IMG/VR virus record: IMGVR_UViG_3300025652_000494
Coordinates: 1 to 25,234 of that record
From: a virus
Strand: one strand, 5' to 3'
DNA: 25,234 bases
The notes under the pieces are model-generated. The model was not told the origin of the DNA. It saw only the letters and a program-made list of their open reading frames with translations, and ran no database searches. Below, piece by piece: positions 1-23,286 of this stretch. Every line of letters starts with the position of its first letter. Within the stretch, counting starts at the first letter, position 1. The translations under genes and the position numbers were made by a program.

Positions 1-648
1 GTAGATACTGTCTTTACAGAAAATAACCAAAGTTTCACGGAATGTGGCTAGCCCTACGATCTCATCGCCAATAGATATCTCTCCTGCCCCTGATGCAGCA
101 CTAAAGTCGTTCTCGCTGTACGGCGCACTAAACTGCAGAAGGTGGCGTTTGCTTGTCATGCCGCAGAAGAAGAGATGATTCTTGTGTTCTATTACAACTT
201 CAGGTGCTGTAGGTTTTGTACCTGCACCTGATCCTGCTCCTCCGGTTAACGCTGTGTACGTACTACCATCAAACATAGCTGCGTCATTGACGCCATCTGC
301 CATTGCAATCTTTTCTGTACCCGCCCAGTTATAAACTGTAAAGGTGTATCGCTCTGCGCTAGTGCGGTTAGTTACAAAGTTTGTCCATCCAGAACCCGTA
401 CTTGTTGCTACATTTGCACCCCGTGCTGCAACAACTTTATTTTGAAATATAGCTACTCCCAGTACGCCGCCAGAACCTGCAACCTGATTGTCGTCATACT
501 TGCTAAAGCCTTTTATCTTGGCATAGCCACCAGTTACAGACGGCTCATAGTTCTGCAGAGTAATGGCTTCTCCGGGTTTTGCAACGAACACACTTTTGTC
601 GAGGACTAACCCACCATCACAGTTTATGGGGAAGGCTTGTATCGGCAT
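1..648 (-). CDS. Tail structural protein, N-terminal part (cut by window edge)
   Basis: An open frame runs without a stop from the ATG at 648 to the left edge, giving 216 residues; the 3' end lies outside. The start shares its A with the stop of the upstream adaptor gene (TAATG), so translation is coupled. The protein begins MPIQAFPINCDGGLVLDKSV and then has LQNYEPSVTGGYAKIKGF at about residues 34-51. A phrase of this 'LxNYEP...GGYxxIxGF' kind is what I know from tail nozzle or tail tubular proteins of podovirus-like phages. The rest is beta-rich, with alternating Gly/Thr/Ser and hydrophobic residues, consistent with a propeller-like tail component. Its position directly after the putative neck adaptor fits a nozzle (P22 gp10 or T7 gp12 role). 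The family assignment is inference from motif and position. Confidence 0.7.
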   Translation of the reverse strand, partial: MPIQAFPINCDGGLVLDKSVFVAKPGEAITLQNYEPSVTGGYAKIKGFSKYDDNQVAGSGGVLGVAIFQNKVVAARGANVATSTGSGWTNFVTNRTSAERYTFTVYNWAGTEKIAMADGVNDAAMFDGSTYTALTGGAGSGAGTKPTAPEVVIEHKNHLFFCGMTSKRHLLQFSAPYSENDFSAASGAGEISIGDEIVGLATFRETLVIFCKDSIY

Positions 649-2018
649 TAAACGGCTCTCATGTAGTCTTTTTGGTTTAGTAGCTCGGTCTTCATTCTGC
701 GAATACCATTTTCGTAGTCACGGAAGGAAAACTGTGCTGCCTGATCATTGCCCCTAAGAATGTGAATGTAGTATTTAACACGGGCTACGATTACATCATG
801 GTATCGTGTGGGTATTTTTGGTTTATCTGTAAAGATAGATAGGTCTGGAGAAGAGTCGTAGAAGTCAAACAGAACATCATACTGTGTGTTCTCAGGTATA
901 GGCGTGATCCCGAAGGAGTTGTCACTCCTCACACGGTACACACAGTCGGGGCTATTAAAGCCATCGTCCGGTGCGGACAGGGCTAAAAACTCGCTCTGCC
1001 TGTATGAAGAGTGATGCCGCCCAAGACCTTCGTGATACTCCTCAAAAGATTTGTACTTGAGAGTGGTAGCTGAAGCGTCTGCCTCAAATACCTCTACGAA
1101 GTCTACATCAAGGTTTTGCGAAGCAGTGTTGCTGAGACTAATAAAAGTTTGTTGTGTAGAAGCTGTAAAGGTAGCAGTCTTAATCTCTCCACCGCCTACG
1201 TTTGTAATAGTAAATGTAGTAGATAAGTCAGAGTCCTTATCGCTGCTAGACCCTGCAAATACATTTAGTGTCTCAGAGGTAGAAGAGATGGTTGCAGAGG
1301 CTATCCTCGCTGTAATGCGATACGTTCTATTCTCTATCGTAGGTATTACCTGTTCTATACACCCAGCGTTTAAGCGCAAAACTCCTGAAGCATATGTCCT
1401 ACCACTAACTGAGTTACTAAGGGCAGGAGTGCCAGAGGTGCTTGTTCCTGCAGGGTCTGTGCTTCTGCTGTCCCAGAAGGAACCTAAAGTAAAGGTCTTA
1501 TCAAAGTCTCCCTGCCGAATAAGATTCTGGGGGCGCAAGAAGAAGCTGTCATAGTCTACGTCTGTGCAGAAAGTGATGTCACCAGATGTAGCTGTAAATG
1601 TAGAGGATACACCCGTTAAAGTCTCAGAGGCTTGGAACTCACCTTCTATCGGCTCAATCAGCATGTACTGTTCGTCCGTGTGTCCTCCATGCGGCGGCAC
1701 TCTACGCAGGATGCCTTTTGCAGAGGACGTACCCCCCGTAATCATTTCGTTAATGGTAAAGCCCCCGCTAACGCTGGACACTTCTACTTTTACTGGGTAC
1801 TTATACTTGCCCTTGCCGCCAAACAGCGTGTATCTTCCATTGTGAAAGTGCCACGGCCACTGTATGTATTCAGCGTCAACATCGCGGATAGCTTTGTTTA
1901 TATCTTTTTTAACTGTAGTCTGTACGCCCCGTGTGCCAGACAGACCTGCAGCAGTTTCTGCAATAGTTGTCTCGTTGAGGTCAAACAGTACAGCGTTGAT
2001 TAGTTCTACATAATTCAT
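648..2018 (-). CDS. Head-tail/neck adaptor-like protein with inserted beta domains
   Basis: 456 residues. The N-terminus (MNYVELINAVLFDLNE) and the C-terminal block (about 320-456, including IPTRYHDVIVARVKYYIH) resemble tail-adaptor proteins of podovirus-like phages, which are mostly helical and join the portal vertex to the tail. Between these ends are two other modules. Residues about 80-150 are a GxSSAxG-type beta module (ITGGTSSAKG, then a matching SETLTGVSS phrase). Residues about 165-315 are rich in Thr/Ser/Gly, starting LIRQGDFDKTF and ending VDFVEVFEA, which looks like a carbohydrate-binding-type beta sandwich. The ATG at 2018 follows an AGG seven bases upstream. It lies between a small virion protein and the tail protein at 1-648. 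The adaptor role is inference; the modular layout is visible. Confidence 0.65.
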   Translation of the reverse strand: MNYVELINAVLFDLNETTIAETAAGLSGTRGVQTTVKKDINKAIRDVDAEYIQWPWHFHNGRYTLFGGKGKYKYPVKVEVSSVSGGFTINEMITGGTSSAKGILRRVPPHGGHTDEQYMLIEPIEGEFQASETLTGVSSTFTATSGDITFCTDVDYDSFFLRPQNLIRQGDFDKTFTLGSFWDSRSTDPAGTSTSGTPALSNSVSGRTYASGVLRLNAGCIEQVIPTIENRTYRITARIASATISSTSETLNVFAGSSSDKDSDLSTTFTITNVGGGEIKTATFTASTQQTFISLSNTASQNLDVDFVEVFEADASATTLKYKSFEEYHEGLGRHHSSYRQSEFLALSAPDDGFNSPDCVYRVRSDNSFGITPIPENTQYDVLFDFYDSSPDLSIFTDKPKIPTRYHDVIVARVKYYIHILRGNDQAAQFSFRDYENGIRRMKTELLNQKDYMRAV

Positions 2019-2685: not shown

Positions 2686-3351
2686 TCACATGCCCCAAGC
2701 CTTCTTTAAATACGTCTGAACCAGTGTTGATTTTGTAAACATGTCTTTCACTTGCGTTGACCTTGTAAACATATCTTTATTCTGTTTCATAAGATATGTG
2801 TTTACCTCATACATGTTTTGCAAAATAAAAGACTGTTCGTAAGATACGTTAGAAGACATCCATCCAATTATATTTTGCCTAAATCCTTTAGTAACTTTTT
2901 CTACACCGTGAGGGTAAATGATAGGGAAGATTACTGCTTCTCCAGCGTTTAGTTTCTTACCTATCTGGCCTACAGGAGTTGCTAATGTAAACTCCCCACC
3001 CTCGTAATCGTCTGTTAAGTTTATGCTCCAGCCATAGTCAAAGAATACATTGTTTGATTTTGGTCGGGCCTTAAAAGCATCTACATGCAGGTCGTAGTAG
3101 TCTCCCTCCATGTATTTGTTATAAAAATTTACTGATACTCTGGTAGGACAATACACGCTGTCAATGTAATGTGTATCGTATAGCTTGTCGGTAATCAGCT
3201 TCCTTACCTCGTCTGGAACACCTTTAGATTCTTTGTTGCTCTTCAGGTCTTCTAGATCAGGAGCAGTATCTTCCCCGTTCTTAAATGTGTTCTGGTCAAT
3301 CTTGTCCAGACAAAAACTTACTTCATCTTCGGTTAGTAGTTTGATAAACAT
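2686..3351 (-). CDS. 2OG-Fe(II) oxygenase (prolyl hydroxylase-like)
   Basis: 221 residues from the ATG at 3351. This start is set by a GGAGG five bases upstream; a TTG 15 bases further up would put that Shine-Dalgarno inside the gene. Iron ligands are visible as H89-V-D91 (YYDLHVDAF) and distal H148 (IYPHGVEKV), with R158 (KGFRQNIIGW) as the 2-oxoglutarate-binding arginine. An EGGEF strand at about 117-121 is typical of the prolyl-4-hydroxylase/PKHD family. Such enzymes couple 2-oxoglutarate decarboxylation to hydroxylation of a protein or small molecule in the cytoplasm. The substrate cannot be read. It sits between the head decoration gene and tail genes. A second member of the family is encoded at 19165-19794. 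Confidence 0.85.
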   Translation of the reverse strand: MFIKLLTEDEVSFCLDKIDQNTFKNGEDTAPDLEDLKSNKESKGVPDEVRKLITDKLYDTHYIDSVYCPTRVSVNFYNKYMEGDYYDLHVDAFKARPKSNNVFFDYGWSINLTDDYEGGEFTLATPVGQIGKKLNAGEAVIFPIIYPHGVEKVTKGFRQNIIGWMSSNVSYEQSFILQNMYEVNTYLMKQNKDMFTRSTQVKDMFTKSTLVQTYLKKAWGM

Positions 3352-3390
3352 ATGTACCTCCGTCAATTCAATATCAAAACAATTTGAAGG

Positions 3391-7225: not shown

Positions 7226-7984
7226 TTACCTAGCCTTAATAACGTCTATAATCATTCCTGAGATGTCTACTTCCCACCATTTTTCACGAAGATTGCTTTT
7301 TGCTGGATTAGCGTGGTGATTGTTATGCCACCCCTCTCCCCAATTAATTAGAGACAACCATACACAATTACATGAGTTATCTTTAATAGTGTGATTTTTA
7401 TAGCCCACATCAAGATGGTTTACGTAGTTTGTAAGCGCCTGTACTAACATTACTAAAACAGAGGGTATAATAAACATAAAATATAAGAGTTGAAACCCCC
7501 CTAACAATAAAAGCAATCCAACATACGTTGTAATAATTAAAACCCAATATCTATTAGTGTATTTAATATAAGGATCGCGGGATAGTGGTAGTGCTTGTCT
7601 AACCATCTTCATTTCATTTAGCGAGTACCTTAAAAACAACATCTTGATAAACCCACGCGAAGGGTCGTGCGGATCATCCTCTCCACTATCAGAATGTTTG
7701 TGGTGGATTATATGTATTCCTGCCCAGCCTAATGAGCTTCCGGTGCCTGATAATAATGCAAGAGTAGAAAATAAATATTTTATACCCCTGCTCTTAAATT
7801 TAAAGCTTTTATGCGCCCAATACCTATGATTAGTTACTACAATTCCAAGACAGTCATACAAAAAATACATAAGCAAACTTAAAAGTATGGCGGAAAATGT
7901 AAAATCAACAAAATTAAAAAGTAAAACTGCTGAAATTAAATTTATTATAAAAAGGTATCGTACTTTATTTAAAGATGCGCTCAT
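7226..7984 (-). CDS. Membrane fatty acid desaturase (acyl-CoA delta-9 type)
   Basis: 252 residues with all three histidine boxes of membrane di-iron desaturases: HRYWAH (53-58), HIIHHKH (91-97) and GEGWHNNHH (216-224), plus the extra NH at 189-190. Hydrophobic stretches at about 10-50, 70-90 and 145-185 supply the usual membrane helices. The enzyme would insert a cis double bond in acyl chains at the inner membrane, using oxygen and host electron donors. At 252 residues it is short relative to many acyl-CoA desaturases but still has the full ligand set. Its ATG lies 20 bases inside the end of the large virion gene and its stop is 2 bases from the wall hydrolase start, so it is fully embedded in the virion operon. 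Confidence 0.93.
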   Translation of the reverse strand: MSASLNKVRYLFIINLISAVLLFNFVDFTFSAILLSLLMYFLYDCLGIVVTNHRYWAHKSFKFKSRGIKYLFSTLALLSGTGSSLGWAGIHIIHHKHSDSGEDDPHDPSRGFIKMLFLRYSLNEMKMVRQALPLSRDPYIKYTNRYWVLIITTYVGLLLLLGGFQLLYFMFIIPSVLVMLVQALTNYVNHLDVGYKNHTIKDNSCNCVWLSLINWGEGWHNNHHANPAKSNLREKWWEVDISGMIIDVIKAR

Positions 7985-17005: not shown

Positions 17006-17186
17006 TTTGTACGATCTGGTTCTCTTTGATTAGCCCACGATCAATTGCGTAAGCTTGTACGACGAAATCTTCTACAGTTTTTACTTCTACCGTCTTATAG
17101 AACTGGCCCTTGCCACGGATGTAGCAGGGCTGGCTCAAGGGCTTTCTGGTCCGCGACAGTTTAACTTCTACGAATATCTTATTCAT
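16998..17186 (-). CDS. Small hypothetical protein
   Basis: 62 residues beginning MNKIFVEVKLSRTRKPLSQP and containing a YKTVEVKTVEDFVVQAYAID strand-helix unit. It overlaps the small terminase candidate by 8 bases upstream and the 189-residue gene by 8 bases downstream, so it is tightly embedded in the operon. There is no membrane segment, signal or recognised motif. Function unknown. Confidence 0.6.
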   Translation of the reverse strand: MNKIFVEVKLSRTRKPLSQPCYIRGKGQFYKTVEVKTVEDFVVQAYAIDRGLIKENQIVQNG

Positions 17187-17607
17187 GATTTATGATAATA
17201 GGATCATCCTGCCCAGACTTTGCGGGAAGAAGAACCACTCCATGTAAAGCAGTAACGTTATGTTCAACTTTGTCGTGTTTGCCCACTCCTACCCGATTAA
17301 GAATAGATTCCGCTGCTTTTATACGCTGTTCAGCGCGTGGGATGGTTCCATCATCGTCTAGTGCTTGTACAAGACCTGCTGCCGCTTTTACTGAATTAGC
17401 GGCTAACATATTCTTAGCCCTGCCTACTATCTCGTCTGCAAGAGAGTTCATAACCGCCTTGCCAGTAGTTTCGGAGTATCCGGCTACGCGCAGTGCTGCA
17501 GCGTTATTGCCGCCATTGTCCATGAGAGCGTCTAAGTATGCAGACTGCATCTCAGTTAGCTCTCGCTTCTTCTTCTTCTGTGCGGGTAAGAGTCCTTCCT
17601 GTGCCAT
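17179..17607 (-). CDS. Terminase small subunit (putative)
   Basis: 142 residues; the ATG shares an A with the upstream stop (TAATG). The N-terminal part has KRELTEMQSAYLDALMDNGG followed by NAAALRVAGYSE, the helix-turn-helix pattern ('lT..Q..yl.al...gGn...Aa..AGYs') common in small terminases and used to recognise phage DNA. A helical, Ala-rich middle (NSVKAAAGLVQALDDD, RIKAAESILNRVGV) would form the oligomer core. The acidic tail PIIINHE could touch the large subunit. It lies four genes ahead of large terminase, a little more distant than usual. Motif and position agree, but the family is variable. Confidence 0.7.
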   Translation of the reverse strand: MAQEGLLPAQKKKKRELTEMQSAYLDALMDNGGNNAAALRVAGYSETTGKAVMNSLADEIVGRAKNMLAANSVKAAAGLVQALDDDGTIPRAEQRIKAAESILNRVGVGKHDKVEHNVTALHGVVLLPAKSGQDDPIIINHE

Positions 17608-17939
17608 TAGTAACGTACTTTACGTACTCCACCGCCATGAGCATATTCTTTAACCTTACCGCCACCCATCATGCCTGTAACCTTGTTGCGGTTCATTTGC
17701 ATCAGGCTCTGCTGCGGGTTCTGCTGCATGGAAGCTGCACCCATAATCTTATCTTTGTCCGGGGTGCCTGTAGTAGCCATGCCACCATAAGCTTTCTTAG
17801 CCGTCTTTGCAGCTTGCTTGAAGTTCTTGGCAGTAGGCGCACCTTTAGCCCCTACCTTACGCATCTTCTCTCCAGAGCCACCGGCTATCCGCTTGCGCTT
17901 CTGTTGAATATTATAATATAGTCCTTTTTTTTCTGGCAT
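17607..17939 (-). CDS. Small basic Gly/Met-rich protein
   Basis: 110 residues from the ATG at 17939, which shares an A with the upstream stop (TAATG); an upstream GTG-type start adding four residues is less likely. It begins MPEKKGLYYNIQQKRKRIAG, continues with a Lys/Ala-rich stretch (KQAAKTAKKAYGGMATTG) and ends MMGGGKVKEYAHGGGVRKVR. I know short, basic proteins with this opening from marine phage packaging regions, where their role is undescribed. It is probably disordered and may bind nucleic acid or be a minor head component. Confidence 0.65.
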   Translation of the reverse strand: MPEKKGLYYNIQQKRKRIAGGSGEKMRKVGAKGAPTAKNFKQAAKTAKKAYGGMATTGTPDKDKIMGAASMQQNPQQSLMQMNRNKVTGMMGGGKVKEYAHGGGVRKVRY

Positions 17940-18337
17940 TAGCACTTCCACCTTTTTCTTGCTTGCCTAATACGGCTATTGGGATTAGCCGCTGCCTTGG
18001 GAAACTTCTTCATCTGACCTGCAGAACGAGCGCAGTATGACTTACGCCTCTTTGCGGCCTTACTTCCCGCCTTGACCTCGCCGGTCACTGCGCCTTTTAG
18101 CTTTGAACCTTTGTTAGCCGCACGATAAGCCTTGATACCCTTCTCGGTCATTCCAGCGCCCTGTTTAGTAGGTCGCTTCATTCCTGAACCTGTAGGCATC
18201 TTGGGCTTACGAACTCCACCGCCCTTTGCATACTCCTTACGACTAATCGCTGCTACCTTCTTAGATTGCCGCTTGTGCATCTGTGAGGCTTTGACTAGCT
18301 CCTTGGAGATTTGCTGGAGTTGTTCTTTGGCTGGCAC
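17939..18337 (-). CDS. Small basic protein with C-terminal Cys/Arg motif
   Basis: 132 residues if translation starts at the GTG at 18337, one base after the upstream stop. An ATG at 18454 would add 39 residues but overlap the neighbour by 116 bases with no supporting signal. The protein is very basic. The N-terminal third is helical (EQLQQISKELVKASQMHKRQ); the middle has YAKGGGVRKPKMPTGSG. The end is the most distinctive part: KGIKAYRAANKGSKLKGAVT, then RRKSYCARSAGQMKKFP and finally RQARKRWKC. A 'K.SfCAR..G...........RKRW.C' ending is recurrent in small phage proteins of unknown role. The two cysteines, 32 residues apart, may bind metal or nucleic acid. Confidence 0.65.
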   Translation of the reverse strand: MPAKEQLQQISKELVKASQMHKRQSKKVAAISRKEYAKGGGVRKPKMPTGSGMKRPTKQGAGMTEKGIKAYRAANKGSKLKGAVTGEVKAGSKAAKRRKSYCARSAGQMKKFPKAAANPNSRIRQARKRWKC

Positions 18338-18338
18338 T

Positions 18339-18641
18339 TTATTTTGCTGCTTTGGGTTTTTTGGCGGGAGCGGTTTTGGTGCGAGACACTGAATACTGTT
18401 TATCAGTACCAAAGCTACGGGCCTTGGGGGCGTCTCTGCCATATTGATAAACAAGTTCTTTATCTCGCTTTACAGCCTTTATTCGTCTATCCAAATCAGC
18501 GCTATACACATCTTCAGCAGCTTTTCCGCGATCACCTTCTTTAGTATCGTAGTACTTTTTTATAGCTTTCTTACGATCTGCAGAATCTCTTTCATTAATA
18601 GATTTGTAAAGTTCATAAGTTGATTTTTGTTTCTTTGCCAT
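18339..18641 (-). CDS. Small highly charged hypothetical protein
   Basis: 100 residues. The ATG at 18641 is chosen because it overlaps the upstream stop (TAATG) and has GGAG nine bases before it; a start 30 bases earlier would overlap the neighbour needlessly. It begins MAKKQKSTYELYKSINERDS and is Lys/Asp/Arg/Glu-rich and helical through residue 75. The end is Lys/Ala/Pro-rich and likely disordered (TAPAKKPKAAK). No motif is recognised. Confidence 0.6.
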   Translation of the reverse strand: MAKKQKSTYELYKSINERDSADRKKAIKKYYDTKEGDRGKAAEDVYSADLDRRIKAVKRDKELVYQYGRDAPKARSFGTDKQYSVSRTKTAPAKKPKAAK

Positions 18642-18871
18642 TATTCCATCTCCACCGTTGGTTCTCCCCATCCACTCGTTCCAAATCCAGTGGTTCTTGT
18701 GTACATCTTCTTACAGTGACAGTCTCCACAGTCACAGTGAGCGCAAGGCTCTGGACAATGACAATCTCTCGGCTGACACACGCAGGTTAGGCAGGTGTCA
18801 TCCTCCGGCTGTTTTTCAGGCGCGTTGGATATCATTGTAAAAGCTGCATAAGGCCCTTGATATTGAGGCAT
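18641..18871 (-). CDS. Metallothionein-like cysteine-rich protein
   Basis: 76 residues, first gene of the packaging/virion cluster. Ten cysteines lie within 27 residues (27, 30, 32, 37, 39, 43, 46, 48, 51, 53), as CxxC, four CxC pairs and interleaved histidines at 38, 45 and 52 (CPEPCAHCDCGDCHCKK at 39-55). No aromatic residue falls in the cluster, as in metallothioneins. Ten Cys and three His could bind several Zn, Cd or Cu ions in the cytoplasm. The flanks (1-26 and 56-76) are Pro/Gly-rich and short. The Shine-Dalgarno is weak, while the leader can fold strongly. It could also be a zinc-bound virion or regulatory protein, but the CxC density favours a metal-thiolate cluster. Confidence 0.65.
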   Translation of the reverse strand: MPQYQGPYAAFTMISNAPEKQPEDDTCLTCVCQPRDCHCPEPCAHCDCGDCHCKKMYTRTTGFGTSGWGEPTVEME

Positions 18872-18889
18872 TGTAAATTCTTTGGGGGT

Positions 18890-18973
18890 GCAGCTACTAC
18901 AGTCTTGTCTCCCAACCCTCTAGGGTTAAATATAATACTATTTTTGATAGGGTGTAGACGGACTAATAGCTGC
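18890..18973 (-). promoter_or_regulatory. Structured 5' leader of the metallothionein-like gene
   Basis: The transcript expected from the minus-strand promoter starts near 18976 and carries a foldable leader of about 105 bases. A basal helix pairs GCAGCTA (18967-18973) with TAGCTGC (18890-18896), continues as AGTC (18961-18964) with GACT (18901-18904), then GTCT (18956-18959) with AGAC (18907-18910). Inside are two hairpins: CTAT-CAAAA-ATAG (18938-18950) and AACCC-TAGA-GGGTT (18914-18927). The overall shape is a three-way junction closing about 18 bases before the start codon. This could be a cis-regulatory RNA. The complementarity is seen; ligand and function are unknown. Confidence 0.5.
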
Positions 18974-18982
18974 TAACTATCT

Positions 18983-19010
18983 ATTATAACAATTATATCG
19001 AAGTTGTCAA
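18983..19010 (-). promoter_or_regulatory. Consensus sigma70 promoter for the virion cluster
   Basis: On the minus strand, a perfect -35 TTGACA (19005-19010) and a perfect -10 TATAAT (18983-18988) are separated by 16 bases. An AT-rich stretch lies upstream. The predicted start is near 18976, driving the genes from 18871 downward. Confidence 0.85.
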
Positions 19011-19041: not shown

Positions 19042-19069
19042 TTGACAAATCCGATATGAGCTGTATAAT
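19042..19069 (+). promoter_or_regulatory. Consensus sigma70 promoter for the plus-strand oxygenase
   Basis: A perfect -35 TTGACA (19042-19047) and -10 TATAAT (19064-19069) with a 16-base spacer. It is back to back with the minus-strand promoter: the two -35 boxes are 31 bases apart across an AT-rich segment that could act as an UP element for both. Confidence 0.85.
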
Positions 19070-19164: not shown

Positions 19165-19794
19165 ATGTTTGTTACCCCCTCAGAGGATGTTATAAGGCCG
19201 TGGCCGTTGACTTCGTACACCTTTAATACTTTTGCCCAGTATATTCAATACTTTAATGCCGATGAGTGTAAACAGTACATCCGCGACGGGAAAGAAAATG
19301 AACGGACTACTGTCTTAAAGAAGGGTGAGGTTGGTAATGCAGAGGCCAACACTAACTTTGAGGTAAGAAACTCTGATGTGTGTTTCTTCAAGACACATAA
19401 CCCAGCAAATAATCCCCTATACTCAAAATTAACCGAAGTTCTGATAAACGCTAATCAATCCTTTTTTGAATATGATATTTTTGATATAGAAGCTGTGCAG
19501 TTTTCTACCTACTCCGCTGGATATGACGGTTTCTATACAAAGCATATAGATACTATGACAAACTCTGCCGCTACAGGAGTTAGAAAGTTAAGTTTCAGTG
19601 TGCAGTTAAGCCCTGCAGACTCCTACGAGGGGGGTGATCTCCTCTTACACACCGACATGACGCCTACAGTTGCACCCAGAGAGATTGGAAGCCTGATCGT
19701 ATTCCCAAGTTTTACACTGCATGAAGTTACACCTGTAACTGAGGGGGTGCGGCACTCTCTAGTAGGCTGGGTAACAGGACCAGCGTGGAAATAA
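19165..19794 (+). CDS. 2OG-Fe(II) oxygenase (second copy)
   Basis: 209 residues, the first gene of the only plus-strand unit. Iron ligands are H127-I-D129 (YTKHIDTMT) and H186 (FTLHEVTPV), with R196 (GVRHSLVGW) for 2-oxoglutarate. An EGGDLLLH strand at 155-162 is characteristic of prolyl-4-hydroxylase/PKHD-type enzymes. It is clearly of the same family as the minus-strand gene at 2686-3351, but only the core motifs align by eye. AAAGGA lies 12 bases before the ATG, a little far. Its own regulated promoter suggests a different expression time from the virion copy. The likely role is hydroxylating a host or phage protein or small metabolite; the substrate is unknown. Confidence 0.88.
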   Translation: MFVTPSEDVIRPWPLTSYTFNTFAQYIQYFNADECKQYIRDGKENERTTVLKKGEVGNAEANTNFEVRNSDVCFFKTHNPANNPLYSKLTEVLINANQSFFEYDIFDIEAVQFSTYSAGYDGFYTKHIDTMTNSAATGVRKLSFSVQLSPADSYEGGDLLLHTDMTPTVAPREIGSLIVFPSFTLHEVTPVTEGVRHSLVGWVTGPAWK

Positions 19795-22666: not shown

Positions 22667-22753
22667 CGTATAATGTTCCATCATCCAAGTGTACCAAAAC
22701 ACACTGTTTGGATGTAGTTCTTCATTGTATAGTACATCTTCAAGTGCGTGCAT
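22661..22753 (-). CDS. 30-residue coupled ORF
   Basis: The ATG shares the last A of the upstream stop (TAATG). It reads MHALEDVLYNEELHPNSVFW then YTWMMEHYTQ and TAA. It is acidic with many aromatic residues. Its only support is the exact coupling, a pattern used repeatedly in this genome; function unknown. After its stop there are about 75 bases before the terminator with no further gene. Confidence 0.5.
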   Translation of the reverse strand: MHALEDVLYNEELHPNSVFWYTWMMEHYTQ

Positions 22754-23286
22754 TATGCTACCTCTTTCACAGTTTCGGTAAACCAATCTGGTACAGGACG
22801 ATTAGTCCACTTAGCAAAGTATGCCTTATCACCAATGTAGTACGCCTTGTACGCAGAGATTGCATCGTCTAACGACGCAGAGTTAGGATTACATTTGTAG
22901 TGGTCAGGCATACATTGCGGTGGTGCTGAAGTTAATCCTGTAAAGACTGTTCTGTGTGGTATGTTGTCAGGCGCGTAGAACAACCATTCTTTCGTAGCAG
23001 CCTTGTGTACTTTGTTGTAGCGGTGCGTGTACTCAATACCAAGATATCCCCATAGGTCCGACAACCAATTGTAATTGCCACGGCCTAGCCTTGCCCATGC
23101 AGTAGAGGGGTGGTTCTTGTGAGCTATCTTGTACAAGCCCTCACGGTCAGCAACTTCATCACCGTCAATTACTCTATGTGCGGTGGATAGGATTTGTGCA
23201 TACTCCAGCACCATTTTGACTACATGCTTGTCACAGTGCATTTGCGCTGCAATCTTGGGGTTTTTATCTAGATAGAATATATTCAT
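22753..23286 (-). CDS. Hypothetical protein, possibly a distant pyrimidine-dimer glycosylase relative
   Basis: 177 residues. The opening MNIFYLDKNPKIAAQMHCDK then HVVKMVLEYAQILSTA, and later KNHPSTAWARLGRGNYNWL and a PPQCMPDHYK motif at about 122-131, form a set I know as a conserved phage protein of no fixed name. Its order of motifs resembles the bacterial Pyr_excise family ('LD..RL.KQRvE.lQIL' followed by 'NHPAV.MW.GY..aL..Yg'), so a DNA-repair-type fold is possible. That link is inference and the catalytic residue is not evident. It lies after the tRNA-like element and before the 30-residue ORF. Confidence 0.65.
   Translation of the reverse strand: MNIFYLDKNPKIAAQMHCDKHVVKMVLEYAQILSTAHRVIDGDEVADREGLYKIAHKNHPSTAWARLGRGNYNWLSDLWGYLGIEYTHRYNKVHKAATKEWLFYAPDNIPHRTVFTGLTSAPPQCMPDHYKCNPNSASLDDAISAYKAYYIGDKAYFAKWTNRPVPDWFTETVKEVA

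Follow-up and report, generated by a model that had tools for sequence, protein, structure and literature searches.

What kind of protein is encoded by a small cysteine-rich gene that stands directly upstream of the virion genes of a phage, and does it bind metal as metallothioneins do? We addressed this question in a stretch of viral DNA of 25,234 nucleotides, referred to as the window in what follows, and in its relatives among IMG/VR viral contigs. The features of the locus are compiled in Table 1.

Table 1. Position and description of the features of the ten-Cys locus in the window.
Feature	Positions	Strand	Description
Ten-Cys metallothionein-like protein gene	18641-18871	-	Conserved ORF of 76 aa (ATG at 18871, stop at 18641, stop codon included); strong purifying selection; ten Cys in 41/41 untruncated copies (42 loci)
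Core C27-C53	18713-18793	-	27 residues: half-site 1 (CxxCxCx4CHC), variable loop, half-site 2 (CxxCxCGxCxC)
Leader, 109 nt	18872-18980	-	Predicted long imperfect hairpin, directly upstream of the start codon
Sigma-70-type promoter	18983-19010	-	TTGACA-16-TATAAT, 12/12 matches, reading into leader and gene
Divergent sigma-70-type promoter	19042-19069	+	TTGACA-16-TATAAT, 12/12 promoter-like site, towards the 2OG-Fe(II) oxygenase gene
Downstream genes	17179-18638	-	g99, DUF6321 protein (17939-18454), g114, terminase small subunit (17179-17607)

A conserved gene with ten invariant cysteines

The encoded protein has a mass of 8.4 kDa and a pI of 4.8, and its core, from C27 to C53, has the sequence CLTCVCQPRDCHCPEPCAHCDCGDCHC. 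The composition given in the preliminary description was confirmed: these residues hold ten cysteines and three histidines in CxC/CxxC order, with no F, W or Y. Four CxC and three CxxC motifs can be read from the sequence, and aromatic residues are present in the protein outside the core. None of the other 32 listed proteins of the window has more than two cysteines per 27 residues, and in 2000 residue shuffles of all 33 window proteins the count never exceeded five.

Scans of IMG/VR viral contigs gave 17 loci with a first small alignment and 42 with a wider one. The full ten-Cys pattern is present in 41 of these 42 loci, which represent 18 distinct cores; the sole failure, L007, is cut by the end of its contig. 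All ten cysteines are thus conserved in every untruncated relative, and relatives lacking most of them did not occur. Ten pairwise comparisons of the core gave dN values of 0 to 0.09 against dS values of at least 0.15, with four of the ten dS values not computable, which we read as saturation. Since both TGC and TGT are seen at each of the ten Cys codons among the 41 untruncated copies, and dN is far below dS, the cysteines are kept by selection on the protein; the ORF is a real gene under purifying selection at the protein level.

The variation within the core is as informative as its conservation. The spacer between C3 and C4 has three or four residues and the loop between C5 and C6 has 3, 4, 6 or 13 (41 copies), giving six combinations of spacer lengths among the 18 distinct cores. 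Length changes are confined to this spacer and this loop, a pattern to be expected where selection acts on Cys ligands and not on a packed core. Across the family, the half-sites follow C-x2-C-x-C-x3/4-C-H-C and C-x2-C-x-C-G-x-C-x-C, with a loop of 3 to 13 residues between them, so that the protein reads as two five-Cys half-sites on a tolerant loop. The histidine of the CHC motif is invariant (41/41), while the other two positions are His in only 18 of 41 copies each. Consequently, of the metal-thiolate hallmark that had been recognized in the window protein, the metallothionein-like Cys pattern is kept in the family and two of the three histidines are not. An eleventh cysteine is found in seven of the 41 copies (L254, L258, L290 and L292-L295). 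In short, the family appears as a protein reduced to its ligands, with ten cysteines fixed and the spacers free.

The flanks of the core are conserved in parts of the family only. In the clade of the window phage, which we call lineage I, the N terminus carries a conserved GP[YF]xx[FY]xM stretch that is missing in a second phage lineage, lineage II; a C terminus similar to GWGEPTVEME is present in part of the family and absent in L006, L018, L020, L021 and L025.

Cysteine spacing and the proposed metal cluster

No signal peptide is apparent in the protein on inspection by eye, and it would therefore be expected in the reducing cytosol. In this compartment a metal-thiolate cluster fits a protein with ten invariant cysteines in CxC/CxxC order and no aromatics in its core. 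Disulfides are rare between the cysteines of CxC pairs. That the protein could instead be a small disulfide-rich virion or exported protein, its cysteines paired and not metal-bound, we regard as most improbable, given its four CxC motifs, the lack of an apparent signal peptide and the copies with 11 cysteines; on the other side stand the even number of ten and the place of the gene, which in lineage I is first in the virion operon and in lineage II last in a block with the endolysin gene.

Zinc ribbons consist of two CPxCG-type knuckles and a beta fold. A conventional zinc ribbon had been named beforehand as an outcome that would contradict a thiolate cluster, and it was rejected because CPxCG is found in none of the 18 cores and no fold is predicted; the sequence part of this check is clear, while the metal-free AlphaFold2 model (pLDDT 47, no fold) proves nothing either way. 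The absence of a fold in this model may be what one would expect of a metal-dependent protein.

The main rival of a buffering protein is a structural one, in which two or more zinc ions would be held in a rigid knob with a spacing similar to that of the fungal Zn2Cys6 clusters; the conserved tails would then bind a phage or host protein, with the ten-Cys protein acting, for instance, as an assembly or takeover factor, and the metal would be structural rather than buffered. We consider this explanation unlikely, although it carries real weight. Zn2Cys6 domains follow the pattern C-x2-C-x6-C-x(5-12)-C-x2-C-x(6-8)-C, and their DNA-binding members have a basic loop. The window protein fits this spacing, whereas five of the 41 copies have x5 in place of x6 and the copies with the 13-residue loop exceed x12; for the family, six of the cysteines fit C-x2-C-x5/6-C-x(5-15)-C-x2-C-x6-C, with length variation mainly in the middle loop. 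A first, narrower profile matched nothing in the PDB, and with the wider profile the sole matches up to E 10 were the chains 6o19 (E 0.05) and 6e33 (E 2), neither of them significant. We take these chains to be the fungal Zn2Cys6 regulators Pho7 and C27B12.11c, perhaps one and the same protein. The likeness to Pho7 (6o19) consists in the spacing of six cysteines and the variable middle loop. However, the family has four further cysteines that are equally invariant and are left unexplained by such a cluster, and the spacer between the second and third cysteines of the six-Cys pattern is not basic, so that the DNA-binding loop of the fungal proteins is lacking. The conservation of both tails in parts of the family favors a structural cluster, and yet the N-terminal tail is missing throughout lineage II and the C-terminal one in the five copies listed above.

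Genome setting in lineage I

Puniceispirillum phage HMO-2011, Pelagibacter HTVC phages and Roseobacter CRP phages have large terminase subunits (TerL) that share about 51-56% identity with that of the window, and by this sequence kinship the window phage is a relative of the HMO-2011-type phages. Because of this relationship, and because seawater is the stated source in the CRP and HTVC records that were opened, the window phage is probably marine. The small terminase subunit (TerS), TerL, portal and major head protein of the window were identified by profile.

The ten-Cys gene is the first ORF after a promoter with 12/12 matches and is followed by small basic genes, the terminase subunits, the portal and the major head protein. 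Nine of the ten aligned leader sequences, including that of the window, possess the promoter (12/12 in eight, 10/12 in L023), and the tenth, L018, starts downstream of the promoter position. The small basic proteins between the ten-Cys gene and TerS, one of which is a DUF6321 protein, form a cluster (17607-18638, minus strand) whose make-up differs among relatives. The gene immediately downstream varies among lineage I members, while the ten-Cys gene is the constant element.

To sample lineage I with an independent bait, we used the small terminase, which gave 47 related loci. The ten-Cys gene is present in all 32 contigs that reach the site, three of the copies (L007, L239, L262) being cut by the contig end. 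The remaining 15 contigs start downstream of the site; this was read directly for L253, L248 and L242. For the other 12 it was judged from how little sequence precedes the terminase and from a DUF6321 match that is either absent or placed at the edge of the contig. The ten-Cys gene is a core gene of the window phage clade.

On the other side of the locus, a 2OG-Fe(II) oxygenase gene recognized by profile (19165-19794, plus strand) is divergent from the ten-Cys gene and has its own promoter-like site. A second ORF of the window (2686-3366, minus strand) is weakly similar to this oxygenase, and both match the same places. No oxygenase match is found beside the lineage I gene in L017, L019 and L025, nor adjoining it in L235, L238, L254, L256, L257, L264 and L268, seven loci on contigs that extend sufficiently far upstream. 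With several relatives lacking the oxygenase, a functional tie between the two genes is weakened, and no metal-related gene is a constant neighbor. Within the virion gene block, an ORF at 7226-7984 (minus strand) has histidine boxes seen by eye, and we presume it to be a membrane fatty-acid desaturase.

The leader RNA of lineage I

A covariance model built on ten leaders matched the leader in 22 of 22 lineage I sources, four of them contigs used for the model and 18 not, with no more than about 15 nt between the end of the match and the start codon. L240 has one additional, weak match (E 0.14), on its opposite strand. The same model found no leader in the nine lineage II loci, in eight GenBank relatives (named below), or in the 35 of 37 loci searched that encode the group B mini-proteins described in the last section. 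The conservation of the leader in lineage I is therefore certain. Since lineage II does without it, the role of the leader probably concerns the late transcript and not the protein.

Its structure is graded lower, as probable. When folded singly to minimum energy, all 19 leaders examined give a long imperfect hairpin, and the z-scores of nine tested leaders range from -1.05 to -4.35. In the model-fitted alignment, which is biased towards the structure and contains the weak match from the opposite strand, two-sided changes are seen in 7 of 21 pairs (shuffle mean 4.6; 24 of 500 shuffles reach the observed value) and in 20 cells (shuffle mean 6.9; none of 500 shuffles reaches it). The first ten leaders have one double-change pair, which is no more than in shuffles (372/500), and RNAalifold did not recover the hairpin from the wider sequence-only alignment A8. 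Rfam returned two sub-threshold matches only, to one microRNA family and one snoRNA family.

A second phage lineage carries the gene

Nine of the 42 loci (L278-L282, L288, L289, L297 and L298) belong to a different phage lineage, that of record G002 and its kin. The two lineages differ in their major head proteins (phrog_267 in lineage I, phrog_1328 in lineage II), and their portals share 24% similarity over 267 residues. In lineage II, the ten-Cys gene overlaps the end of a gene for 146-147 amino acids and closes a block with the endolysin gene, which was identified by profile in L027 only. The statement that the ten-Cys gene comes first after the virion promoter therefore holds for the window and does not extend to a general link with virion genes.

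On the opposite strand, each of the nine lineage II loci has genes for a 2OG oxygenase and for a ribonucleotide reductase, and four (L288, L289, L297, L298) also have an Hsp20 gene. The nearness of oxygenase genes, in the window and throughout lineage II, could suggest a thiol redox buffer, or an Fe-S or sulfur-transfer protein, that serves the iron enzymes of the phage. We give this explanation a slight chance, as the adjoining oxygenase match is missing in ten lineage I loci and the protein has neither a ferredoxin-like spacing nor a significant family match.

In a gene tree of 20 proteins, lineage II appears in two places, each alongside lineage I rows, and the starred branches require the lineage to change at least twice; as the protein is short and five of the 17 inner branches are starred, this is to be read with care. 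With the same care, the tree suggests that the gene came to be in two lineages by at least two exchanges, which argues for a portable biochemical benefit. A 177-aa gene of the window (22753-23286, minus strand) has a counterpart with 50% identity in the lineage II record G002, a possible sign of exchange in common hosts. Records G001 and G002 have no tRNA genes and thus provide no clue to the host.

Database and literature searches

Profile searches against metallothionein families, proposed in the preliminary description, gave a negative result: neither Pfam, searched with 14 and 17 family members, nor NCBIfam, searched with the window protein, produced a metallothionein model (up to E 10 in Pfam) or any significant match. 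The weak Pfam matches were DUF4326 (E 0.027) and VESA1_N (E 3.2), with two members each; DUF4326 was set aside as too weak. PHROG gave no meaningful match for the family members, since phrog_27696, matched by 14 of 14 and 11 of 17 members, is too weak (best E 0.05) and also scores in four of 14 control genomes.

A tblastn search of four family members against 50,697 GenBank phage records found nothing, with a low-complexity filter that may hide Cys-rich matches, and 84,980 prokaryote species genomes, scanned twice with short peptides of the window-like subgroup, which could miss diverged relatives, yielded no confirmed relative. Eight GenBank relatives of the window phage were considered whole: HMO-2011, CRP-13, CRP-345, CRP-738, HTVC033P, HTVC103P, HTVC115P and record ctYwJ313, of which seven are cultured and ctYwJ313 is not described as such. 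Neither the ten-Cys pattern nor its first seven cysteines occur in any of their frames. At least six cysteines per 27 residues are present in 56 frames, 44 of which are nested in a frame of over twice their length.

In the open literature, no paper on a phage-encoded metallothionein was among the PMC matches listed. The main text of a paper on HMO-2011-type phages (PMC9038755) does not mention metallothionein, and in the consulted part of PMC3974807 the word appears in a table of bacterial genes. The ten-Cys family corresponds to no named protein family among those searched, and its best reading is that of a new phage family.

Comparison with metallothioneins and proposed function

The beta domain of animal metallothioneins has about nine cysteines in some 30 residues, in CxC/CxxC order and with no aromatics, and binds about three divalent metals. 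The phage protein resembles it in Cys density, motif order and the lack of aromatics, but no sequence relationship was found, and the family differs in its ten cysteines, one invariant His and variable middle loop. Bacterial metallothioneins are small, Cys-rich and contain CxC and CxxC motifs, and the ten-Cys protein shares its small size, its Cys richness and these motifs with those of the SmtA/BmtA type and with PflQ2MT. According to the portion of PMC10612145 consulted, His is commoner in bacterial and plant metallothioneins than in those of animals, and the bacterial proteins bind zinc more tightly than the animal and plant ones, with affinities that set their zinc-buffering capacity. The same portion of that source describes a GATA-type zinc-finger fold in bacterial metallothioneins, whereas the ten-Cys protein has neither a predicted fold in a model made without metal nor a profile match.

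In the functional sense of the term, metallothioneins bind several d10 metal ions in thiolate clusters. The protein shows sequence traits of this class: low mass, Cys richness in CxC and CxxC motifs, no aromatics in the core, and cysteines that are invariant in 41 of 41 untruncated copies. We favor, as somewhat more probable than all other accounts together, a new phage family of metallothionein-like metal-thiolate proteins for buffering or sequestering metal late in infection. In this proposal, which draws on sequence patterns, a small, acidic and probably cytosolic protein would fold around a metal-thiolate cluster as metallothioneins do, its ten cysteines forming two five-Cys half-sites joined by the loop. 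Lineage I would synthesize it late in infection from the late promoter, and lineage II by coupling to the preceding gene that it overlaps. The protein would bind and buffer soft metal ions, most likely Zn(II) and possibly Cu(I), during host protein breakdown and particle construction.

We counted against a buffering role the lack of a metallothionein model match, the first profile's want of any PDB match, the two variable histidines and the inconstancy of metal-related neighbors; in addition, the conserved flanks suggest a partner or a structural role beyond plain buffering. As to a supply of metal to zinc-dependent virion proteins, which had been suggested, nothing in this analysis tied the protein to a particular virion protein. 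A wider proposal, which we consider rather doubtful, is that phages possess a metallothionein class of their own: a core late gene that buffers metal, controlled in cis by a conserved structured leader that perhaps senses metal or the protein itself, and passed as a module between lineages sharing hosts. If the protein does bind metal, this group of phages would have metal handling built into its infection program, and the questions raised would be the competition of phage and host for zinc or copper, the protection of new virions from metals set free when the cell is dismantled, and the export of metal from cells.

Other small Cys-rich proteins of phages

Our searches also brought up a group of phage mini-proteins, group B, of about 27-33 aa with 6-9 cysteines and the pattern CPxCG[CG]x4CxCx3CESCG, in 37 viral loci (L070:6906-7004 on the minus strand, L122, L148-L150 and L193-L229). 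In the nine loci read, their genes lie in late clusters near terminase and portal or tail and lysis genes. In L070, the gene is upstream of the terminase genes, as is the ten-Cys gene in the window, and the terminase and portal are 39-51% identical to those of the window. The cysteines shared with the ten-Cys family are spaced alike in both; group B, by contrast, has zinc-knuckle-like CPxCG and CESCG motifs. A comparison of the two by hhalign gave a pairwise E of 0.0013 with a probability of 18.8%. In profile cross-searches, the family profile scored at most 26 bits on group B, against 57 bits on poly-Cys frames and 142 bits on a Cys-repeat frame of L103; since poly-Cys frames score higher, kinship of group B cannot be told apart from Cys content by profile scores. 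No family match of group B was better than E 0.16. A spacing pattern of eight cysteines gave mostly simple repeats among the matches listed, of which only L070 and L122 looked sensible, and the same spacing with two Gly and one Lys fixed returned five stretches, adding L148-L150.

The L103 frame (3-1187, minus strand) is open over 395 codons with 158 cysteines in CC-rich repeats, and may be a real gene or the shadow of a repeat. Another tiny Cys-rich protein, with the motif HCCCCCGCCxCEK, occurs in six viral contigs of 23-289 kb (L009, L010, L012, L013, L014 and L015).
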